The notes beneath the pieces were generated by a model. The model saw nothing but the letters and a program-made list of their open reading frames with translations. It did no database searches and had not been told where the DNA came from. Below are positions 4,569 through 21,297 of a DNA stretch of 21,688 nucleotides, one piece after another. A program made the position numbers and the translations under genes. Source of the DNA: a virus; IMG/VR virus record IMGVR_UViG_3300004097_000067, positions 1 to 21,688 of that record. One strand, given 5' to 3'. Numbering within the stretch: the first letter of the stretch is position 1; each line of letters begins with the position of its first letter.

Positions 4569-5516
4569 ATGACTGACGTTATTAAATATGCCGAAGAGTT
4601 AGCTGCTAAATATAAATACAAAAAGCCGCCTGATAATGTCGACTTAGTATCTGTCTCTAAATATCTGGAGAAGATTAATGGCTTTGGCGATTCAGAACAT
4701 CGTGATACCTTAATTGGTGGTAGACCTTTCTGTAAAGACTACGAGCGTGTCGTAATTGGCTCATATGGTGCGTTTGTTGAGATCTCACATGAGAACTTAC
4801 TACTGCCACTAGAGATACCAGAAGACAAGAAGTGGCGTTATGACGAACTGTACCTTAAACGCCGTCAGATGAAAATAAAGTATCGTGAGTTGAGTTACGC
4901 AGGTATCCCTGTCTTCCTACAGGTCGATACTGTAGAATATGCAGATTACAAAAAAGGCATGTACTACGTTAACGTAACTTACTTTGATGTGCCTGTTGCA
5001 CCTGCCGATATTGTTACGTCGTCCTCTGTAATCGAAGTCTTAGAGGCTCAGCTGCAGAACACTAGTGTGTTTACACATACTGACTCGGAATGTGCTGAGA
5101 ATTTTGTTAGCGTACTTAAAGAAACCTTTATAGATAAAGTTAATGTGGCTATAGTAGGCGATGGTGACATCTCAGACGCTAGTCAGGTTAGTCGATGTAT
5201 TAGCATGGCCGTTAGAATGTTTGGACGTAAAGAAAACATTCGATTAGTGACTGGGGAGTTTGAAGGTGTTGAATCTATCGTTAGGAAGTATGCGCGGAAG
5301 AACGGTTTTGAGATTGACATATACCCAGTTATTGAGAAGCCGGAATGGGTCGTTACGGGACTGACGAATAGGCAGGAACGTGACCGCAGAATGCTAAATG
5401 CGGCACACTGCGTTATTGTAATTAACAAACTTGGGTCGAAGCAGGGTGATTTTATGTACACGTCTGCAATTGATGCAGGTCGTTTTGTAACTAAACGCAT
5501 TGTAAGAGACTGTTAA
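4569..5516 (+). CDS. Two-domain protein with C-terminal SLOG/DUF2493-like Rossmann domain, 315 aa
   Basis: The C-terminal part (about residues 190-300) has the layout of the SLOG/DUF2493 superfamily, Rossmann-like folds that bind or cleave nucleotides and their derivatives. A first strand and glycine turn VAIVGDGDISD is followed by a helix, then a strand IRLVTGEFEGVESIVRKYA, and finally the RDRRMLNAAHCVIVIN segment, matching the family's 'R-N-x-x-M...A-D' helix and strand. The N-terminal part (about 45-145) is a separate beta-rich domain containing VVIGSYGAFVEI, a basic YLKRRQMKIKYREL stretch and VEYADYKKGMYYVNV; I cannot name this family. It lies in the recombinase operon. It could process a nucleotide or NAD-type metabolite, or sense one. 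DprA is another SLOG protein, but the match to it is poorer. Confidence 0.62.
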   Translation: MTDVIKYAEELAAKYKYKKPPDNVDLVSVSKYLEKINGFGDSEHRDTLIGGRPFCKDYERVVIGSYGAFVEISHENLLLPLEIPEDKKWRYDELYLKRRQMKIKYRELSYAGIPVFLQVDTVEYADYKKGMYYVNVTYFDVPVAPADIVTSSSVIEVLEAQLQNTSVFTHTDSECAENFVSVLKETFIDKVNVAIVGDGDISDASQVSRCISMAVRMFGRKENIRLVTGEFEGVESIVRKYARKNGFEIDIYPVIEKPEWVVTGLTNRQERDRRMLNAAHCVIVINKLGSKQGDFMYTSAIDAGRFVTKRIVRDC

Positions 5517-5537: not shown

Positions 5538-6191
5538 ATGAAAGCAGAAAAACGTAAAGCCATCGAGGCATTTATCTTAAAGTACGTACAAAAGGTAGAT
5601 GACTCTGGCTCTAATCGGGACTTATACAAGAAAGTATTTCTTGAGATGACCGACAAGAAACTTGAAGAGTTAGTAAAGTCTCCCATTCCTATTTACGCGC
5701 CTAACGGTGGTCCAGTTAATATAGACCATATGCGTAATATTGATATCATGCGTGAGTTGGGCTATGACCCTGAACAGTACTGTTGGATTACTGATGATAA
5801 GACGGGGGCTACTTCTAGAACTATTTATAAACATCTAGTGCTAAGACTACCTGTTCGTCGACAAACACAGATGGTTGATAAAAAGATCTCCTATGCCGAA
5901 CACAACAGAACTATTGATAACTCAACAGGACAAACTGTAGGCAAATCTAAGGGCTCTTCGTTTTCGTTCCCACAAATGTATGTAATGTACGCTAAAGGTT
6001 ACGACAACACGCTACGGGAGTTTATAAACACACGTGGTGGTAATGTTAAGGCTAGCAAAGCAGTAGATCGTGAGATTCGACTTACTGGTAAGAGTAGTAG
6101 ACGATTTGAAGGGATGGAAAATACCCGAGTTAAAAGTACGGTAACCTTAGGTAATATCTTTAAGGCAATGCATATTCAAAATAACCTATAA
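5538..6191 (+). CDS. Possible RNA polymerase beta C-terminal-like protein, 217 aa
   Basis: Not assigned with certainty. From about residue 50 onward the protein looks colinear with the extreme C-terminus of bacterial RNA polymerase beta. YAPNGGPVNIDH recalls the beta 'Y-x-G-x-T-G-E' strand, and DKKIS occupies the place of DDKIH. GKSKGSSFSFPQMYVMYAKG resembles [23 protein letters not shown]; then NTLREFINTRGGNVKA resembles YTLQEMLTVKSDDV; and the last residues LGNIFKAMHIQNNL resemble LLKEIRSLGINIEL. The match is in pattern and order rather than in strong identity. phiKZ-like phages encode split multi-subunit polymerases, so a separate beta C-terminal piece is plausible, but an unrelated structural protein is possible. 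AGGAG lies well placed before the ATG. It is in the recombinase operon. Confidence 0.42.
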   Translation: MKAEKRKAIEAFILKYVQKVDDSGSNRDLYKKVFLEMTDKKLEELVKSPIPIYAPNGGPVNIDHMRNIDIMRELGYDPEQYCWITDDKTGATSRTIYKHLVLRLPVRRQTQMVDKKISYAEHNRTIDNSTGQTVGKSKGSSFSFPQMYVMYAKGYDNTLREFINTRGGNVKASKAVDREIRLTGKSSRRFEGMENTRVKSTVTLGNIFKAMHIQNNL

Positions 6192-8784: not shown

Positions 8785-9789
8785 ATGGCTACTACGCCGA
8801 AAGCAACGATGCATGGGAGTGATCCTAAGGTCACTCCAGTTGTAAAAGATGTCTATAAGGATGATGTACTAGTTACATCTAACGAGGTAAAGAAGCCCTC
8901 GCCCGTACAGTCGGCTGCTACTGAGTACCTTAAAAAGTTTGACACTGATACCAAAAGTGTTATTGGTACGATAACAAAGACCGTCTCAAGCGATGACCAA
9001 GGACTAACTGCCGACTTCGGATCTATTAAAAAGCGGCTGGAGACTTCGTTCGGTATCGGTGGCTCTACTACCGGGTTGAGTAACGTTCTTAAGAACGATA
9101 TCGGCAATGCGCTGGCTACCTTAACTGGTGAGAAAGACTCTAAGGTATTGTTTAACAAAGTAGCTACTGCCGTCAAAGATACTGACATCACTAGCGCTGC
9201 ATCTATTGTTGGCATGGTCAATACATTATCTGGCGAGAGTAAAGTGTTTACTATGCTGGATATAACCGCGCAGGCTGCTTTTGTTAGAGGTATCTCTAAG
9301 AAGCTCATAGCTTGGGGCGTGCCTGACATGCTTGACAAGTTTATTGAAAGCATCGAAGACGTCGCTACTAAGAATGCCTTATTGGAAGAAAATGCCATAC
9401 AGGCATCTAGTATTGGCGACTTGACGCAGACTAACTATTTCTGCACGCGAATGGGCCAACTTAGAGCAAGTGCTGTTAAAGATACGCTCATCATGAACCT
9501 TATGATTAATTATGAAATCGATCCCAATGAAGCACGTTCCTATGTTGTGTTAGGTGAGGAACTGCTGGCGTTCTATCTCTGGTTAGATCCATTGTGGGAT
9601 GCGGACAGTAAGGACGTTTCGTTAAAATCATTAGAGTTTCATACTTATGCGAATGAAGACGTCGTCGACATTCTTAGATATACAGACAGTGGTCTAGATG
9701 TAGTTCTAGGTTCACAGGTCATACTAGAGAAGCCACTAGAGACAGCTGGTGACTTATTCCCAACAATGATAGCGTGGCAACACGGTTAA
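8785..9789 (+). CDS. Hypothetical phage protein, possibly virion, 334 aa
   Basis: Unrecognised. The N-terminal 100 residues are polar, Thr/Ser/Lys/Asp-rich and probably flexible; a helical body follows from about residue 110 (ITAQAAFVRGISKKLIAWGV, DKFIESIEDVATKNALLEEN). The C-terminal domain ends in LFPTMIAWQHG. The composition, with many small polar residues and no enzymatic motif, resembles phage structural proteins, but that is composition only. GAAGGAGA before the ATG is a strong ribosome binding site, suggesting high expression. The next gene starts 10 bases after the stop. Confidence 0.68.
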   Translation: MATTPKATMHGSDPKVTPVVKDVYKDDVLVTSNEVKKPSPVQSAATEYLKKFDTDTKSVIGTITKTVSSDDQGLTADFGSIKKRLETSFGIGGSTTGLSNVLKNDIGNALATLTGEKDSKVLFNKVATAVKDTDITSAASIVGMVNTLSGESKVFTMLDITAQAAFVRGISKKLIAWGVPDMLDKFIESIEDVATKNALLEENAIQASSIGDLTQTNYFCTRMGQLRASAVKDTLIMNLMINYEIDPNEARSYVVLGEELLAFYLWLDPLWDADSKDVSLKSLEFHTYANEDVVDILRYTDSGLDVVLGSQVILEKPLETAGDLFPTMIAWQHG

Positions 9790-9799
9790 GGAAATTTAA

Positions 9800-10483
9800 A
9801 TGGAACAGGGTAAAATTAAAATAGAAGTTAGCGGTGAAAACCAAAAGATCGAAGTAATTACAGACGGTGTTAATACACTAGACTTTCGTGATAAGAGTAT
9901 GATACACCCAGTTAATTTATTTCTTATGGGTGAAACTATACAGGTTACTAATGTGTACGCTACTGCACAGCACTTCGCTGTAGGCATTACTGATAACGTT
10001 GTTGATATGTTATCTGTTTACATCAGTAGTCCTGCTGTGTCATATCGCCATATCCACAACATCAGTTGTAAGGAAACTATAAAGGATGCGCGTAAGATAC
10101 TTGCTACCTATGTTACACATCTAGGACGTAATGTGTCTTCAGACGAGTATAGTCGAACGCTACAATACTTGCGTGTACTTACGGTCCTAGGCGACAAGAA
10201 GATTATTGATAAGTTACAGGCTGCTATTAATTCAGATGATCAGGCAGAAGCATTTAGTGTGGCAATGAAACCACTGATGGATACTAAGGTAATGGTCGCC
10301 AAGTATATTTCGTTACTGGAGTTATACTACGGTTACGTTAAGGTTGAGATACTTACACCTGAAGATATTCTTACATGTCCTGTGACGTCGGTTGAATCTA
10401 GAATGCCTGCGGAAGACTTAGATAAGTGGGCGCTTGATCGTAAGATTATTGAAGAAAGCCAATCGGTAATGTTTGGACAGTAA
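9800..10483 (+). CDS. Hypothetical phage protein, 227 aa
   Basis: Unrecognised. The first 70 residues are beta-rich (KIKIEVSGENQKIEVITDGV), the rest helical, ending in EESQSVMFGQ. No membrane segment or catalytic motif is visible. AAGGAAA precedes the ATG. It lies in one run with the preceding gene. The probable true start of the following DUF488-like gene touches or overlaps its stop codon, suggesting coupled translation. Confidence 0.7.
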   Translation: MEQGKIKIEVSGENQKIEVITDGVNTLDFRDKSMIHPVNLFLMGETIQVTNVYATAQHFAVGITDNVVDMLSVYISSPAVSYRHIHNISCKETIKDARKILATYVTHLGRNVSSDEYSRTLQYLRVLTVLGDKKIIDKLQAAINSDDQAEAFSVAMKPLMDTKVMVAKYISLLELYYGYVKVEILTPEDILTCPVTSVESRMPAEDLDKWALDRKIIEESQSVMFGQ

Positions 10484-10875
10484 TTATAAGTACGTTATAC
10501 ACGTCGCATCTCTCGGTAGGTAAGCAGCTGAAGATGGGCGATAAAAGTACGGTGTTCCTTAACACAACTGTTAAGTCAGGGACGTCACTTATAGAGACCG
10601 CTCTTGCGCCAACATGGCCAATGGTGCTCGGTCATAAAAACAAAACTGTTAGTGATGCACGTTACTTGGAACTGTATAAAGCTAAGTTAGACTCAATGCC
10701 TAACGACTCCGTATCGCAGTTAACTGAGATGGCAAATAAAAAAGGTATTAATGTTGTTGTTTCTTGTTACTGTGGCGAGTCAGGTTTCTGTCACCGCTTC
10801 TTTCTTATTGACTACTTATGTGAACGCTTCGGCTTTAAGCGTGGGTACGAGATAAAGAAGTTATATGCGGACTAA
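10483..10875 (+). CDS. DUF488-like protein, probable non-ATG start, about 130 aa
   Basis: DUF488 proteins are small proteins of unsettled function with a conserved Cys-containing strand and a CHR motif. Here the C-terminal half reads VVVSCYCGESGFCHRFFLIDYL, matching that signature, and ALAPTWPMVLGHK matches the family's 'LAPTW' segment. The first ATG in frame (10534) would delete the family's first strand. Upstream, still open, the frame reads LYTSHLSVGKQLKMG, which matches the 'YTS' N-terminal strand. No ATG, GTG or TTG exists in frame between the upstream stop at 10450 and 10534. The most likely start is ATT at 10483 (overlapping the previous TAA) or ATA at 10486, with TTGGA just upstream. 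The exact start is uncertain; the family call is fairly firm. Confidence 0.62.
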   Translation: MISTLYTSHLSVGKQLKMGDKSTVFLNTTVKSGTSLIETALAPTWPMVLGHKNKTVSDARYLELYKAKLDSMPNDSVSQLTEMANKKGINVVVSCYCGESGFCHRFFLIDYLCERFGFKRGYEIKKLYAD

Positions 10876-10892: not shown

Positions 10893-11441
10893 ATGTTAAA
10901 GATTAAAAAGAATGGTAAGGAATACTTACCTGCAGATGATGGCATCAGTCACATCAATGCGTATAGTAGATCCAATACTGTGCTTGGCAGATGGTTATCC
11001 AATTTTGCTTCGACTCAAGTAGAGTTAGAGTTTGGTGTGTTTGCTTCACTGGAGGCGTTGTATCATTACCTGAAGATCGTCAGAAGTTATGAAGTAGCGG
11101 GTGAAGTAATGCCGGATGAAATAGAGCATGCTCTAGAGCGTCTTAAAGGTATGTGTGGTCGCAATGCACAGACACTTGGACGAACGTTAAAGCAAACGGT
11201 TAGGCAGTCTGGTATCCGTACTATGGAAGAACCGGACAGTGTGTTCAATAAACGATTCACTCAAGGCATGTGTGTTAAGTTTATGAACGATGAAGATATG
11301 TTAGATAACCTACTCGACACAGTTGATTCAGGGATTCCTATCTTACACTATTATGTCGTCAATAACGATACGATCATACATAAGCCACATTACGATTGGC
11401 TAGTAGAGCGCATCGAAGATGCCATAAGTCAATGTAGTTAA
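10893..11441 (+). CDS. NADAR-like (YbiA/DUF1768 superfamily) protein, 182 aa
   Basis: NADAR proteins bind or cleave ADP-ribose-type substrates. Members include the riboflavin-pathway YbiA, and some in toxin-antitoxin pairs with DarT remove ADP-ribose from guanine in DNA. The signature is visible: GRWLSNF at residues 32-38 corresponds to the 'SNF' motif, and SLEALYHYLK at 52-61 corresponds to the 'SxExxYxxxK' helix that carries the catalytic Glu and Lys. A helical second half contains ERLKGMCGRNAQTLGRTLK, as expected. AAGGGTAG precedes the ATG, and a terminator follows the stop. In a phage, an anti-defence role reversing host ADP-ribosylation, or NAD-metabolite handling, is plausible but inferred. 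Confidence 0.65.
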   Translation: MLKIKKNGKEYLPADDGISHINAYSRSNTVLGRWLSNFASTQVELEFGVFASLEALYHYLKIVRSYEVAGEVMPDEIEHALERLKGMCGRNAQTLGRTLKQTVRQSGIRTMEEPDSVFNKRFTQGMCVKFMNDEDMLDNLLDTVDSGIPILHYYVVNNDTIIHKPHYDWLVERIEDAISQCS

Positions 11442-14493: not shown

Positions 14494-17400
14494 TTATCTA
14501 ACTCTACTCATGCTAATAGGCGCACTACCATGTGTTATGGTCTTAGGTGACGGTCTATTGGCTGCGGCGTTGTTAGGCGTTGCGGTAGGTAGCCTATTAC
14601 CCGGTCTAGTATTTTCAGCTATGTCGTCTAGTGTTGCCGCCATACGTTGAAGTTCAGACAGTTGAGATTCTAACGTAGTTTGTGCCTTGTTAAATATCTC
14701 CATGTGTGCGGTTGTGATTGAGGATTTAACGTCTGATAGCTCACGCTGTTTAGTGGCTATCTTGTCTGCTATCTCCGTCTTCACAGTTTCCGCATACTGC
14801 TTACTGTCCACTTTAGACCCCGGTGTCTTGGCGATCACTTTAGCTGCGCTTACTACACTGTTTGCTATCTCAGTATTCCCGCCACCTACACCGACAGATG
14901 TTGGAGCTGCTTCAGAAACTTTAACTTTAGACAATGCAGTATTAACATCCTTAGCTGCTTTCACTTTCTGTATGTTCGACTTACCTACATCAGTTGCTAC
15001 ATTATTATCTGTAGGTCCCATTTTAACCGTACCCTCCACAGCATCGTCATTTTTACTGACGGTGGGAGTTCTGGCTAGTTGTTTGACAGTCGCATACTTC
15101 GATACGTAAGAGAAGCCCTTAGACGCACGTTTTGTTAAGTAGTCATACGTTTCACGGTAAGTTCTGAATCTACCCTTATCCGAGAATACTGGCATGTTTG
15201 ACGCTGCTTGGGTTTTAAAGTCTTTAGCTGCGATTCTATCCGGCGTCCTATATAGGTTTCTGAGGAAGCGCGCCGCCCCAGTTGGTCCTAAGAAGTGTGC
15301 CATATATAGATCGGCAGGGGCTGGTTTAACACCGCTCGGTAGAGAACGTTGTACAATCTTAGACCCCGACTTCAAGTACTCAGCACCCATAAGTGCATTC
15401 GCCACACCGTCCATTCTACCCGCACCCGCTGGAATACCGTACTTATTACCATGACGTCCGATAGTTTCCTTCCAAGTGCCATCGAGGAACTGATATAGTC
15501 CTTTGGCTGTAGAGGTCTTAGCTCCCGCGTATGGGTTAAGCGATGACTCCAACATACCTACAGTTAATAACAGATTCTCATCTACGCCAGTAGCTTTAGC
15601 CACCTCCTTAAGCATTGCTGAGACCGAAGCCTTATCATTCCCGGCTAGTTTTATACGACCGTACGCACTGTCTTGATCGACCCCTTCTTGGAAATCGGCA
15701 ATCGGTATACGTGTGTTGTACTTCTCAAAACTACCGCCTGAAGAACCGCCCCCGCCCCCTGCACTTTTAGCAAGTGGTGTGTTACTAGTGGGACTGGAGT
15801 TAGTGCCCGGTTTCGTATCCAGTTTGCTAATTTCATTGGCAGCGTCACTGGCAGTCTTACGTTTAGGTTTAGTAACCTCGTCTGTGTTTAATAACGAATT
15901 TTTGTTATCATTAGCTGACTGCTCCACAGATTTGGATTTCTTCACTAGGTCGCGTAAGTACTGTACATTACCGTCAGTTGTCGACATGTCACTGTTTAAA
16001 GTATCTACGTCACCGAATGGGCTAGTTCCTATCTCCCACACGCTTATTGACTCACCGCCAGAACTTACATTAGTAGCTATCACAGATAAGGCAACCTCTA
16101 CTAAATATGTGGCATTTGGAGACACCACAATAGCTAGGGGATTAACTTTACCTAATCGATTCGATATCTCCGACATGTACCTAGTTAGTACTGGTACGAA
16201 ACGACTCCTAAACCATTCAGTCCAATTTAGGCGATGTGTTTCATCGTTAGGATTTAATCCAAACTTAGGTAGGAATATTTTCATTACCTTCTCTAAGTCC
16301 ATATCAACCGAAACAGAACCGTTACTAGTTGTTGAGTTATTTACAACAACTTCCTCTAGTTCCCACAGTAAGTTTATTTTATCCACGTATAGGTTTGTTA
16401 GTCCATACGCTTTTAAACGAATAGCTTCAATCGCATTTACGTTCCCGCCACTTCGTTTGTTAGACGCGGTGTCGTTCGCAACGGATGTAAGCTTAAACTT
16501 ACTACCGCCTGCTGTAGATTTAAGATCGCCTGAAGTATCTTTATCTGATACTTTTGGCATGTCAGCATTTGATGTATCGGTTATTTCTTTTTTAGCTACG
16601 CGACGTCCGCGTCTACCTGAGGCTTTAATCGCAGGTGCAGGCAAGTTAGCTGCGTCTAAATCTGAAACTGTTTCCGATTCAACTGGTGCTTTTACTTTCT
16701 TTCTACGGCGGCCATTTGTCTTTTTGCCTTCAGAAGATATCATTTTAACGATGCCCTCTTTTGCCTCTTCTTCAACTTCTTTAACATCTTCTCCCGATAA
16801 CATGTCGGCACCGCCTAGCCAGCCACCTATCGTATCACCGATACCTCTGCTGCCGAAAGGTGATGAGACGTTGGCGTATGTTGGGTGAGAAACTGGTAAT
16901 GATACAGAGCCATGTACCTTTAACATTGTCTTAGGGTCTATCTTTTCAGGATCGTCTAAGTCTAGCATGTTAATAGATGGTGCGTTTTGCTTAACACGAG
17001 TTGTCCACAGCATGTAGATTGGGAAGAATCTACCGTATAGCCATTTCTCAAATCGCAGTACATCTTCAGGCTCTTCAGTGTCGATGTCGAATAGCTTAGC
17101 TAATTCATTAGTTACTTCTTTATTCACACCCTTGATGGTAGATAGTCCATCATTTCCGTATGTGGTAAATTTTGCTAATGTATCTTCTAGTTTAAACAGT
17201 GTCTCTACCTCGTCGCTGGTACCGTCTGCATAATCTTCAGTACCGTAAGCGGCTAGACGATATCTTGTCATACCGCCTTTAGTTCTGTTGATATAGCTAT
17301 ACGCACCGTAGGCTACTACAGTTACAGCGGTCGCTGCCAGTACAGCTGGTGCTGAAACAACACCAACTGCCGCCATACCTGCAACGCGTGCAGTATTAAG

Positions 17401-20400
17401 TGCTAACACCCCTGCGGTTCTACCTACAAATTTAGTAGCGCCCCATATTCCTTTACCTACACGGGATAGTAAACTACCTCTTGAGGCTCCGGCAGCAGTA
17501 GCTGCACCACTCGCTGCGGTTGCACCACTCGCCGCTGTAGATGCGCCACGCAACTTATTAAACAAACCGCCCATGCCATCAGTTAACAGACCTAGCGCCT
17601 TGCCTGCGAAACTTCCGGCAAGTGCTGCCCCTAACGGAGCCATCAGACCTTTAAGGTTACCCAATGTACCGCTTAACATTCCACTCATCTTAGAAAAGAA
17701 TCCTTCAGACGGTCCCTTTTCTTTTTTGTTCTCTTTTCTTTCTTTGCGTTTCTCAGCGCGATCAGCCTTACGTTTCTCGCGTGCCTCCTTACGTGCTTGA
17801 AATATTTCCTTGAAGCTGTTATCGCGTGTACCATCTCCGTCGGTATCGTGCGCAACTGCATCATCAACGCTTTCGGCTTCGGCCATTTTAGCATCGACAT
17901 TGTGTGCTAGACGATCATCAAGTAGTGTATATATCTCACTTAGCTTATCGACCACCTTGCCGTTACCAATGCTAAAAGTTTTCCCTAACACGCCATCACC
18001 TGAGAAGAGACCTTTAATCCAATCTTTCCCTGCACCTAATCCGTCGAGTACAACTCCTCCAGCACTCTTCAGTTTGTCGACACCCCACTTAACAGCGCCT
18101 CCGACCAGTTTACTAACCTTTTTAATAGCAGATGTGAACGGACGACCATTGACATCTACGAATTTAAAGTCGGGTTTATCTATCTCGGTTTGTGCGATGA
18201 CTACTTCTTTGTACTTATTAAAAACAGGACCAGTTATATCCTTTATAGATTTTATACGCTTACCTGTATTTCTATCTATATAGAACCCTTCTAACATTAA
18301 GGAGCGGCGCAGTCTAGGCTCATTTTCACCTGCTATATAAATATCGCCTGATGTTTTAGCTTTGTTTAATAATGACTTAGCTTGCTTATGCAGTCCTTTA
18401 GCAAATGAGACAGGCATACCTAACGCCTTAGCTACAATACCGCCTGACATTCTACCGATACCTTCTGATAGTTTCTTCCAACCCTTGTTTTTATAATAAG
18501 TGAATTGGTCTTTTTTCTTTTGTATATCCTCCTCACTTATTACTATATTTCCGGCTCGGTCGTACACAGCACCTGTTATGTCCTTTATACCTTTTATGAC
18601 TTTACCCGCAGCGTCAAAGTACTCACCTGCTTTCAATTTTTTACCAAATAGTACGACATCGCCATTCTCATCTCGGATATCAGCAATATCGAGTGCTGCA
18701 TCTTTAAAGCCTTTTAGCGTATCTCTTACTGTTCCGAAAGCGGATGTTGCGCGCGTCTTTAAACCTCTCAAGAAATTAGCCGGACTGCCGATCTTACCTC
18801 TTGCCCAAGCTAATCCATTTTTAACTTTACCGAAGCCTGCACCTGCGAGTGATGATATCCGTCTTCTAGATCTACGGGCTGCCGCACCCGCTCTTCCAAA
18901 ATAGCCATCAGAGTCATCGTCAGACGGTTCTCCACCGTTAGGCACTCCATGTGTCATCATTCTCTCAAGTATCTCGAGGATGCTTCCTAGGTCCTCTCTG
19001 TTGTTATTTTCTACTAGTTGTTCTTTTATTTCACCTACTAGCATAGTTAGCGTATCTTTAGATGTCTCGCTGGTTGGATTTCTACCGATGTCTTTTAGTA
19101 CCTCGATAAGGTTAGTATCTACTTCACCGTAAAGGGTCTGTTTTAATGAAGATGTAAACGTTTCTCCGGTTCTTTTTATCAGATCGCCTACGTCAATACT
19201 TCGACTGGTTCTGTTTTCATTGACAGCATTAGCGTCCGGTAAGAATGCTGGACTAGAGACTGGTGTTGAATTAGCAGCGACTGTTGCGGCGATATCACTG
19301 ACTATATCCTCAGTTTGGTCGTTACTAGATACATTCTTATACGAATCAAACAAATCACTGTTGACTGTGGCATTTCCGTCACTACCGACTTTGAATAGGT
19401 TTGCATCTACAAGTGCGCCATTGCCGTACATGTCTGCTATTTCAGTTATTTTTCCCTGAACCGTATCCACTGAAGATCTGATAGCTCTAATTCTATCCAT
19501 CGTCGTATTGTTTATTTTATCTTTGGCTACGTCATCCATTGTGGACATTTCGTCGAAGAAATCTTTCAGCTCGTGACCGCCATTAGTAAACGCTTCACCA
19601 CCAAGTGCGGACGGTGAGTTCACGATTTCATCTATGTTGAATCTACCTACTTTTCGGATCTTTTCGTCAAGTACCTTGCCTAATGATGTTCTAGCATCTT
19701 CGGATATTTCTTCATCGCCTACAATGTGGTTGATTAGCTCGTCTATACTTTCACGAACATATCTCTTAGTGTCCTCATCGTCGACGTCCTTGGCCAACCG
19801 TTTGTTTAAATCGTCCTTGTTAACCAAAGTGCCTGATTTGAAATCGTAAACCTTACTCTCTGACGGTTTCCCAGTTATTGAGTTGATGGAATCGTTGATA
19901 GTGGACAGCCACTTAGGGATTACATCATTTAGTGTAATGCTGTCGCGTTTAGTCCACGGTGACACTTTAGATAGCGTTTCTGCTGAAACATTATCCATAG
20001 ATGCAGTATCGCCACTATACCGTGGTGTGATGCTCTCGAACATTGTGGCTAATAGTTGCTCACTCCCTTCTAGCTCCCCTGCCTGATTTTTACGAACTAG
20101 ATCATTCATGTATTCAGGTAAGTCGTTCAACTTTCTAAGATTACCGCCTAGCTTAGCAATCGTCTCGTTACCTTCACCTTGCTCACGAAGATAGGAAGAG
20201 AACCTCTTCATGTGCGGGCTTATGTACTTGTTAGCAAATGCACCACCTGCCAGACTTGCTGCAGACTGCATTGTCTTTGCCCGCTCCTGTGCAGGACTTA
20301 AAGGACCGTCTGAGAATGGGTCGTCTTGCGGAAGTATCATATCGGACATGTTTATTGTGTCACGTGCGGTACTTCCGAAATCTCTTATCGCTGTAACTGC

Positions 20401-21297
20401 ATTCCCGCCCATATTACTTACAAAGTCGCGTACGTAATCTGCAGGAGATAATCTATCTACAAGCTTTCTTACCATCATGGCTTTTGTTACTTCGCCAAAT
20501 TCTTCTTTAGCGTAGTCTGGTAATGCGGTATTTTTTACTATTGCGTCCGTGTTTGGGATTAGACGTTCCATCGATTCACGTTGTGATGCTAGCATATCGG
20601 TTAAGACATAGTACTGTCTCCAATTTACTTCTAGCATCTTTCTTCTATATTTGTCACTTACTTGGTTGTAAGCAACCATATTTGCAGTATCACCGCGTAT
20701 TCCAGATATGATTCCGTTTAGGGAGTCTTGACGGATTGAATCAGCAGCGTCTTTTATCTCACGCTGCACTTCTTGTTCTTGCGCATCCTTACGTCCGGCT
20801 TCCTGTTCATTTCTAAGATTAGAGAATGTATCGTCTAACATTGCAGATATTTGAGACTCTCTCGGGTCTTCATTACTGCCACTGCCGCTATACTCTTTAT
20901 CCTCAGACCATTTTTCTATTTTCTTAGTTAGGCGTTCTGGTAAGTATTTTTTAAGCGTTGGGGCTGCTGATCGCGCCGCGCGCTGTAACTCACGCTTGGT
21001 CTGTGTAAGTTGTGTTTTTGCTTCTTGGTAAACTTCTCGACCTTGCACCGCCACGGTATCATATGCGTTAGCAGCTATGGTGTAGTCTTCCGGTAAGCTG
21101 TCTAGTATTAATTTACGACGCTTGCCCTCACCCAAGATAGCCTTAGCTGCAGACTTGGCCGCCTGTTTAGGCATAGCCGTTATTGCATCACGGCCTTCAG
21201 GTAGTGCGGAAGCGGCTGGTGAAAAATCCATGTCAAGGTCTAGATCATCATCTAGTCCCCAATCATCGTCTAGGTCAAAATCTAGTTTCTTACTCAT
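14494..21297 (-). CDS. Giant tail protein with lytic transglycosylase domain, phiKZ gp181-like, 2267 aa
   Basis: Probable cell-puncturing tail protein that cuts peptidoglycan during infection. An SLT-type lytic transglycosylase domain lies at about residues 1890-2030: catalytic Glu E1917 in GMLESSLNP, GLYQF at 1933-1937, and YMAHFLGPTGA at about 1998-2008. phiKZ gp181 (2237 residues, from memory) has the same size and C-terminal enzyme. Other regions in order: an acidic N-terminus, a long helical region, two IKDITG repeats (about 865-920 and 980-1035), a Lys/Arg/Glu-rich stretch (about 1166-1199), hydrophobic Ala/Gly-rich segments (about 1210-1330), two divergent RL-x-AYG modules (about 1342-1455 and 1624-1722), a Gly/Ser linker near 1847, the enzyme, then a helical tail. 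GAGG precedes the ATG by 5 bases. A terminator follows the stop. Confidence 0.88.
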   Translation of the reverse strand: MSKKLDFDLDDDWGLDDDLDLDMDFSPAASALPEGRDAITAMPKQAAKSAAKAILGEGKRRKLILDSLPEDYTIAANAYDTVAVQGREVYQEAKTQLTQTKRELQRAARSAAPTLKKYLPERLTKKIEKWSEDKEYSGSGSNEDPRESQISAMLDDTFSNLRNEQEAGRKDAQEQEVQREIKDAADSIRQDSLNGIISGIRGDTANMVAYNQVSDKYRRKMLEVNWRQYYVLTDMLASQRESMERLIPNTDAIVKNTALPDYAKEEFGEVTKAMMVRKLVDRLSPADYVRDFVSNMGGNAVTAIRDFGSTARDTINMSDMILPQDDPFSDGPLSPAQERAKTMQSAASLAGGAFANKYISPHMKRFSSYLREQGEGNETIAKLGGNLRKLNDLPEYMNDLVRKNQAGELEGSEQLLATMFESITPRYSGDTASMDNVSAETLSKVSPWTKRDSITLNDVIPKWLSTINDSINSITGKPSESKVYDFKSGTLVNKDDLNKRLAKDVDDEDTKRYVRESIDELINHIVGDEEISEDARTSLGKVLDEKIRKVGRFNIDEIVNSPSALGGEAFTNGGHELKDFFDEMSTMDDVAKDKINNTTMDRIRAIRSSVDTVQGKITEIADMYGNGALVDANLFKVGSDGNATVNSDLFDSYKNVSSNDQTEDIVSDIAATVAANSTPVSSPAFLPDANAVNENRTSRSIDVGDLIKRTGETFTSSLKQTLYGEVDTNLIEVLKDIGRNPTSETSKDTLTMLVGEIKEQLVENNNREDLGSILEILERMMTHGVPNGGEPSDDDSDGYFGRAGAAARRSRRRISSLAGAGFGKVKNGLAWARGKIGSPANFLRGLKTRATSAFGTVRDTLKGFKDAALDIADIRDENGDVVLFGKKLKAGEYFDAAGKVIKGIKDITGAVYDRAGNIVISEEDIQKKKDQFTYYKNKGWKKLSEGIGRMSGGIVAKALGMPVSFAKGLHKQAKSLLNKAKTSGDIYIAGENEPRLRRSLMLEGFYIDRNTGKRIKSIKDITGPVFNKYKEVVIAQTEIDKPDFKFVDVNGRPFTSAIKKVSKLVGGAVKWGVDKLKSAGGVVLDGLGAGKDWIKGLFSGDGVLGKTFSIGNGKVVDKLSEIYTLLDDRLAHNVDAKMAEAESVDDAVAHDTDGDGTRDNSFKEIFQARKEAREKRKADRAEKRKERKENKKEKGPSEGFFSKMSGMLSGTLGNLKGLMAPLGAALAGSFAGKALGLLTDGMGGLFNKLRGASTAASGATAASGAATAAGASRGSLLSRVGKGIWGATKFVGRTAGVLALNTARVAGMAAVGVVSAPAVLAATAVTVVAYGAYSYINRTKGGMTRYRLAAYGTEDYADGTSDEVETLFKLEDTLAKFTTYGNDGLSTIKGVNKEVTNELAKLFDIDTEEPEDVLRFEKWLYGRFFPIYMLWTTRVKQNAPSINMLDLDDPEKIDPKTMLKVHGSVSLPVSHPTYANVSSPFGSRGIGDTIGGWLGGADMLSGEDVKEVEEEAKEGIVKMISSEGKKTNGRRRKKVKAPVESETVSDLDAANLPAPAIKASGRRGRRVAKKEITDTSNADMPKVSDKDTSGDLKSTAGGSKFKLTSVANDTASNKRSGGNVNAIEAIRLKAYGLTNLYVDKINLLWELEEVVVNNSTTSNGSVSVDMDLEKVMKIFLPKFGLNPNDETHRLNWTEWFRSRFVPVLTRYMSEISNRLGKVNPLAIVVSPNATYLVEVALSVIATNVSSGGESISVWEIGTSPFGDVDTLNSDMSTTDGNVQYLRDLVKKSKSVEQSANDNKNSLLNTDEVTKPKRKTASDAANEISKLDTKPGTNSSPTSNTPLAKSAGGGGGSSGGSFEKYNTRIPIADFQEGVDQDSAYGRIKLAGNDKASVSAMLKEVAKATGVDENLLLTVGMLESSLNPYAGAKTSTAKGLYQFLDGTWKETIGRHGNKYGIPAGAGRMDGVANALMGAEYLKSGSKIVQRSLPSGVKPAPADLYMAHFLGPTGAARFLRNLYRTPDRIAAKDFKTQAASNMPVFSDKGRFRTYRETYDYLTKRASKGFSYVSKYATVKQLARTPTVSKNDDAVEGTVKMGPTDNNVATDVGKSNIQKVKAAKDVNTALSKVKVSEAAPTSVGVGGGNTEIANSVVSAAKVIAKTPGSKVDSKQYAETVKTEIADKIATKQRELSDVKSSITTAHMEIFNKAQTTLESQLSELQRMAATLDDIAENTRPGNRLPTATPNNAAANRPSPKTITHGSAPISMSRVR

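Follow-up and report, generated by a model that had tools for sequence, protein, structure and literature searches.

T4 gp30.3 (PF08010), the closest characterised phage relative of the protein described here, hydrolyses guanine-ADP-ribose in vitro and gives cells no rescue from DarT1 (PMC11125620). The catalytic residue on the last strand of the NADAR fold is glutamate in YbiA, aspartate in DarT1-linked NADARs and histidine in the phage type (PMC11125620). Two lysines matter in the E. coli C7 NADAR: K95 is essential, and K115 is the lysine that DarT1-linked NADARs need for cell rescue from DarT1 (PMC11543638). NADARs in jumbo phages, together with their links to DUF4326 and SLOG domains, have already been published, and surveys predict that these NADAR/DUF4326/SLOG sets act on ADP-ribose derivatives in soluble form (PMC9503650, PMC7824862). 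A 2026 preprint reports phage proteins that break down the ADP-ribose-based signals of Thoeris (PMC13232231). Here we describe a very divergent phage NADAR whose gene adjoins that of a DUF488-type protein carrying a cysteine motif.

The source record is a 21,688-base virus fragment (hereafter the window). Its genes are collinear with those of two Vibrio phages of 230 kb, pVa-21 and pVp-JHP1101; identity to pVa-21 is 77% for UvsX, 74% for a 697-aa protein and 52% for NADAR. From this collinearity, and not from the length of the record, we infer the jumbo-phage status that the first-pass annotation had assigned. The lineage is probably nucleus-forming, since pVp-JHP1101 encodes an annotated nuclear shell protein. 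The NADAR gene sits in a block that includes virion genes and not in an early defence island; the DUF488-type gene flanks it upstream and a gene for a protein without a Pfam match downstream. A homologue of the upstream gene at 8785–9789 lies directly before NADAR in SPN3US, phiEaH2 and Wellington; here NADAR is two genes on. This common upstream gene suggests vertical inheritance of NADAR. Between pVa-21 and pVp-JHP1101 the NADAR gene has a dN/dS of ~0.07 and is under purifying selection. No Rfam match or tRNA was found in the 21,688-base window. The features discussed below are as follows.

4569–5516, plus strand: protein of 315 aa in which residues ~192–252 weakly match a YAcAr-type SLOG domain (PF10686 E 0.0097, below cut-off), a possible third component.
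10483–10533, plus strand: 5′ extension in frame with the DUF488 gene; it encodes the conserved N-terminal strand of the protein (from the alignment).
10534–10875, plus strand: protein of the DUF488-N3a type with the motif CYC-x5-CHR, 113 aa long if the first ATG is the start (PF22751 31.1 bits, cut-off 27).
10893–11441, plus strand: divergent NADAR protein, putatively of the His type, 182 aa (open reading frame, PHROG, AlphaFold2 model, profile search).
10938–10967, plus strand: family signature DGxxHxNxYS, residues 16–25.
11052–11054, plus strand: E54, equivalent of the distal-ribose glutamate E43 (P. nicotianae NADAR) or E88 (E. coli C7) (PMC11543638).
11073–11075, plus strand: K61, equivalent of the phosphate-contacting K50 or K95 (PMC11543638).
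11181–11183, plus strand: R97 in a GR motif, aligned with R79 of 8bau, which contacts ADP-ribose; 46 of the 56 sequences have K or R at this position.
11346–11348, plus strand: H152 in PxxHYY, proposed phage-type last-strand histidine, matched by position (PMC11125620).
11445–11464, plus strand: intrinsic terminator with a GC stem, a TTCG loop and then a T run (−12 kcal/mol, z −2.5).

The NADAR reading frame runs from ATG through stop and contains both motifs from which the first-pass annotation had started, GRWLSNF (residues 32–38) and SLEALYHYLK (residues 52–61). When the protein was shuffled with its composition preserved, 1 of 200,000 sequences contained a comparable motif pair, and the minus strand across the same interval, in the frame translated, contains many stops. 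Upstream of the gene lies a purine-rich Shine–Dalgarno-like stretch, AAGGG; sigma-70 promoter matches were no better than chance level. The strong terminator is directly 3′ of the NADAR stop codon, and the gene is therefore probably the end of its transcription unit.

Searches with the single sequence did not detect this protein as a NADAR. It scored 13.5 bits (E 0.089) against Pfam NADAR PF08719, below the cut-off of 35.1, which is a detection threshold and not a biological criterion. A Pfam NADAR search across the whole record returned no match, nor did PADLOC and NCBIfam searches with the protein. An IMG/VR scan with the single protein recovered no relatives; scans with alignment queries did. 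PHROG 652, which is unnamed, matches at E 2e-31 and indicates how large the family is, and tblastn found homologues in 483 phage records, including phages of Vibrio, Erwinia, Salmonella and Klebsiella. Nearly all homologues among the matches listed are annotated 'hypothetical protein', because the family falls below standard detection thresholds.

Profiles and structure gave a consistent assignment. A profile of 16 phage homologues had one significant protein match in the PDB, the ADP-ribose-bound P. nicotianae NADAR 8bau (9.7e-5), and a 56-sequence profile matched solely 8bau (1.3e-4) and E. coli YbiA 2b3w (1.8e-3) at E < 0.01. The AlphaFold2 model (pLDDT 95.6, pTM 0.90) was compared with 350,542 PDB chains using Foldseek; 2b3w and 8bau were the sole matches with probability 1.00 (TM ~0.55), at only 14–15% identity, and many named NADAR proteins in a viral structure library also match the model. 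Profile comparison with T4 gp30.3 using hhalign gave 91% probability (E 1.1e-6), and PF08010 itself matched weakly in one of the 16 relatives and in L224. The NADAR-type fold read from the two motifs is thus borne out by model, PDB matches, profiles and catalytic residues, including the comparison with YbiA that had been proposed as a check; the proposed HMM search against NADAR fell short of the cut-off with the single sequence. The protein is a very divergent member of the NADAR fold, with its identity resting on fold, profile and catalytic residues. The family is present in hundreds of sequenced phages; this placement provides a testable enzyme and a pointer to a partner protein. Homologues from Erwinia and Salmonella phages (L003, L007, L018, L088, L094, L096) carry an extra N-terminal region of ~80–140 aa; the one tested, from Wellington (L018), had no Pfam match.

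Residue conservation was counted over 56 aligned family sequences. Invariant positions are D16, G17, H20, N22, Y24, S25, E54, K129 and H152, and W169 is kept in 52 of the 56. The first six of these lie in the family signature. We had considered DGxxHINxYS as wholly unique to the family and dropped this, as YbiA carries INFYS at the place aligned with INxYS. Three residues align with ADP-ribose contacts of 8bau: E54 with E43, K61 with K50 and R97 with R79 (PMC11543638); matches are given in 8bau chain numbering, which runs 2 ahead of that in the paper. The positions of 8bau W89 and R93 are not conserved in the family. The conserved glutamate and lysine expected of a NADAR are both present here, and E54 holds throughout. 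The lysine, a NADAR hallmark, is lost across most of this branch: it occurs in just 12 of the 56 relatives and so is not a family requirement. The loss that the first-pass annotation had named as refuting thus applies to most of the wider family and not to the present protein.

The last strand carries glutamate in 8bau and YbiA; in the present family the candidate is a histidine. In the model H152 immediately precedes the final hairpin, where the order of elements would place the catalytic residue of the last strand, and this makes it the natural choice. Because the profile alignments end before H152, its equivalence to the catalytic glutamate or aspartate is inferred from chain order. T4 gp30.3 is likewise a phage NADAR and has the same Glu…Lys spacing; the last-strand His type described for phages would also be common to both if H152 is the equivalent residue. 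The two differ in sequence (~20% identity) and gene neighbourhood, and T4 gp30.3 has neither the DGxxH portion of the signature nor a histidine in a PxxHYY setting. The DarTG1 antitoxin (DarT1-NADAR) belongs to the same superfamily and has the same catalytic Glu and Lys; its last-strand Asp, linked DarT1 gene and rescue lysine were not found here, and Q93 occupies the position aligned with C7 K115.

The DUF488-type gene is co-directional with NADAR and ends 17 bp upstream of it. Its C…CHR motif is conserved in an alignment of DUF488-type proteins. The 5′ extension contains no ATG, GTG or TTG; the gene may start at ATT 10483 or ATA 10486, or may be N-terminally shortened. A model of the protein (pLDDT 84) had no confident PDB match, and neither did a DUF488 profile. 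Among loci collected solely for their NADAR gene, a DUF488 homologue was present in seven lineages. It is the immediate NADAR neighbour in the lineage of the window and pVa-21 and in L072, L098, L101 and L032; in L082 it lies 238 bp from NADAR with one small ORF called between, and in L105 the two are fused in one protein. By a rough estimate, the chance of this linkage in the six unfused lineages is ~1e-6, or ~1e-5 if L082 is not taken as adjacent.

A DUF488 gene was found in all five complete relatives checked (W01–W05). Adjacency is not universal, because the gene is distant from NADAR in SPN3US and phiEaH2; coordinates place it far away in Wellington as well. With tblastn, DUF488-type genes proved widespread in nucleus-forming jumbo phages, for example Goslar, PhiPA3 and Noxifer. 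Such genes (Goslar 200874–201239, PhiPA3 161964–162221, SPN3US 105034–105318) are mostly unannotated and lie far from NADAR where checked. The literature searched, which was partial in coverage, made no mention of DUF488 together with NADAR or ADP-ribosylation. Relative to that literature the NADAR–DUF488 pairing is a new observation, whereas the NADAR/DUF4326/SLOG links are not.

Relatives of the protein contain exactly the fusions of the published sets: DUF4326–NADAR–SLOG in L052 and L079, DUF4326–NADAR in L059 and L224, and NADAR–SLOG in L256, L257, L260 and others. The partner at the present locus differs in being a separate, adjacent DUF488-N3a-type gene, and DUF488 is absent from both survey papers (PMC9503650, PMC7824862). 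A possible SLOG component is nevertheless encoded 5 kb upstream of NADAR. The protein at 4569–5516 scores 16.1 bits against YAcAr PF10686 (cut-off 28.2), and its pVa-21 orthologue 24.5 bits (E 2.5e-5). YAcAr genes also lie near NADAR in L105 and L101, and the DUF488 protein of L082 includes a fused YAcAr SLOG domain. Further in-frame NADAR fusions, each on a single metagenomic contig, involve a 3′–5′ exonuclease–DNA polymerase A (L050:7986–10877), a uracil-DNA glycosylase (L061:7995–8984) and a PD-(D/E)XK nuclease (L024:7992–9620). Macro, NAPRTase, NUDIX, nucleotidyltransferase, RNA ligase and a second NADAR each occur as neighbours of family members at single loci, counted without a control set. 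A weak Macro-domain match was present in four of the five complete relatives and exceeded the Pfam cut-off only in SPN3US. On a candidate division WOR-3 contig (L101:6022–10261), 4 kb hold a His-type NADAR (6022) and a YbiA-type NADAR (9125) together with a neighbouring DUF488 gene and a gene for a YAcAr SLOG protein; the presence of both types suggests that the two NADARs are not redundant.

We give roughly even chances to the proposal that NADAR, the DUF488-type partner and possibly the SLOG protein form a module that hydrolyses or clears ADP-ribose derivatives arising from host defences, these being more likely small molecules than ADP-ribosylated DNA. NADAR would cleave an ADP-ribose-type compound at an N-glycosidic bond to its distal ribose, with E54 holding the ribose, K61 and R97 contacting the phosphates, and H152 acting as the catalytic residue on the last strand. 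It would probably work with the DUF488-type cysteine-motif protein, and the SLOG protein of the same gene block may be a further participant. Candidate targets would be ADP-ribose derivatives made by NAD+-consuming defences of the host or by RNA- or DNA-modifying toxins. The published prediction for phage NADAR/DUF4326/SLOG sets (PMC9503650) speaks for this proposal; the location of the gene among virion genes and the distance between DUF488 and NADAR in SPN3US and phiEaH2 speak against it. Of the two roles suggested in the first-pass annotation, the gene context agrees better with the handling of NAD breakdown products than with protection from DarT, because relatives are fused or adjacent to DUF4326, DUF488 and SLOG domains.

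In protection from DarT, the enzyme would strip off the ADP-ribose that a DarT1-type toxin of the host had attached to guanines in phage DNA. NADARs, including T4 gp30.3 in vitro, reverse guanine ADP-ribosylation (PMC11543638, PMC11125620), DarTG restricts a Vibrio phage (PMC11481870), and E54, K61 and H152 are all in place. The fusions to DNA polymerase A, uracil-DNA glycosylase and PD-(D/E)XK nuclease likewise keep a DNA substrate possible, but each comes from one contig. This role is nonetheless unlikely and is not the one we favour: T4 gp30.3 fails to rescue cells, the K115 equivalent is glutamine, the window genes scanned with Pfam and PHROG gave no ADP-ribosyltransferase match, and a nuclear shell gene is present in the closest relative, whose DNA is therefore probably shielded already. 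We would place only a small probability on a broader scheme in which the His-type phage NADARs of this family repair N-glycosides in DNA or nucleotides, are tied to replication and base excision as in the three DNA-enzyme fusions, and form, with DUF488 or DUF4326 and SLOG proteins, an undescribed multi-enzyme pathway of jumbo phages that undoes ADP-ribose-based defences. Equally improbable, in our estimate, is a clean-up role outside defence, in which ADP-ribose is removed from RNA guanines or by-products of RNA repair or NAD salvage are processed. NADARs, that of T4 included, reverse guanosine ADP-ribosylation on RNA in vitro, but E. coli C7 NADAR outperforms the T4 enzyme on this substrate (PMC11833690); RNA ligase, RlaP and NAD-salvage enzymes occur as single neighbours of family members, but their genes were not found in the window.

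Two readings depart further from the proposed module. The protein could be an inactive NADAR-fold binder, for example one that soaks up or senses ADP-ribose derivatives, or a structural protein of the virion. The scarcity across the family of the lysine important for C7 catalysis would suit such a role, and the SPN3US homologue gp224 adjoins the head protein gp225 (PMC10052503); in the literature searched for virion packaging, main texts do not name gp224. Invariance of E54 and H152 in all 56 sequences would be unusual for a mere binder, and the present protein retains K61, which makes this reading very unlikely. A riboflavin-type N-glycosidase (COG3236-like) acting on nucleotide intermediates is more improbable still. 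Classical members of the YbiA family carry the annotation of N-glycosidases that act on early intermediates of the riboflavin pathway (PMC11125620), and one phage relative, in Moabite, bears this annotation, but no riboflavin gene was noted near the family members examined, and the proposed last-strand histidine would set the present family apart from the YbiA family with its glutamate.

Two further genes of the window were noted. In the same gene block as NADAR, the product of 5538–6191 is homologous to SPN3US gp218 (46% identity), which makes up the C-terminal part of the beta subunit of the virion RNA polymerase. On the minus strand, 14494–21297 encodes a 2267-aa tail protein that resembles a transglycosylase around residues 1880–2135.
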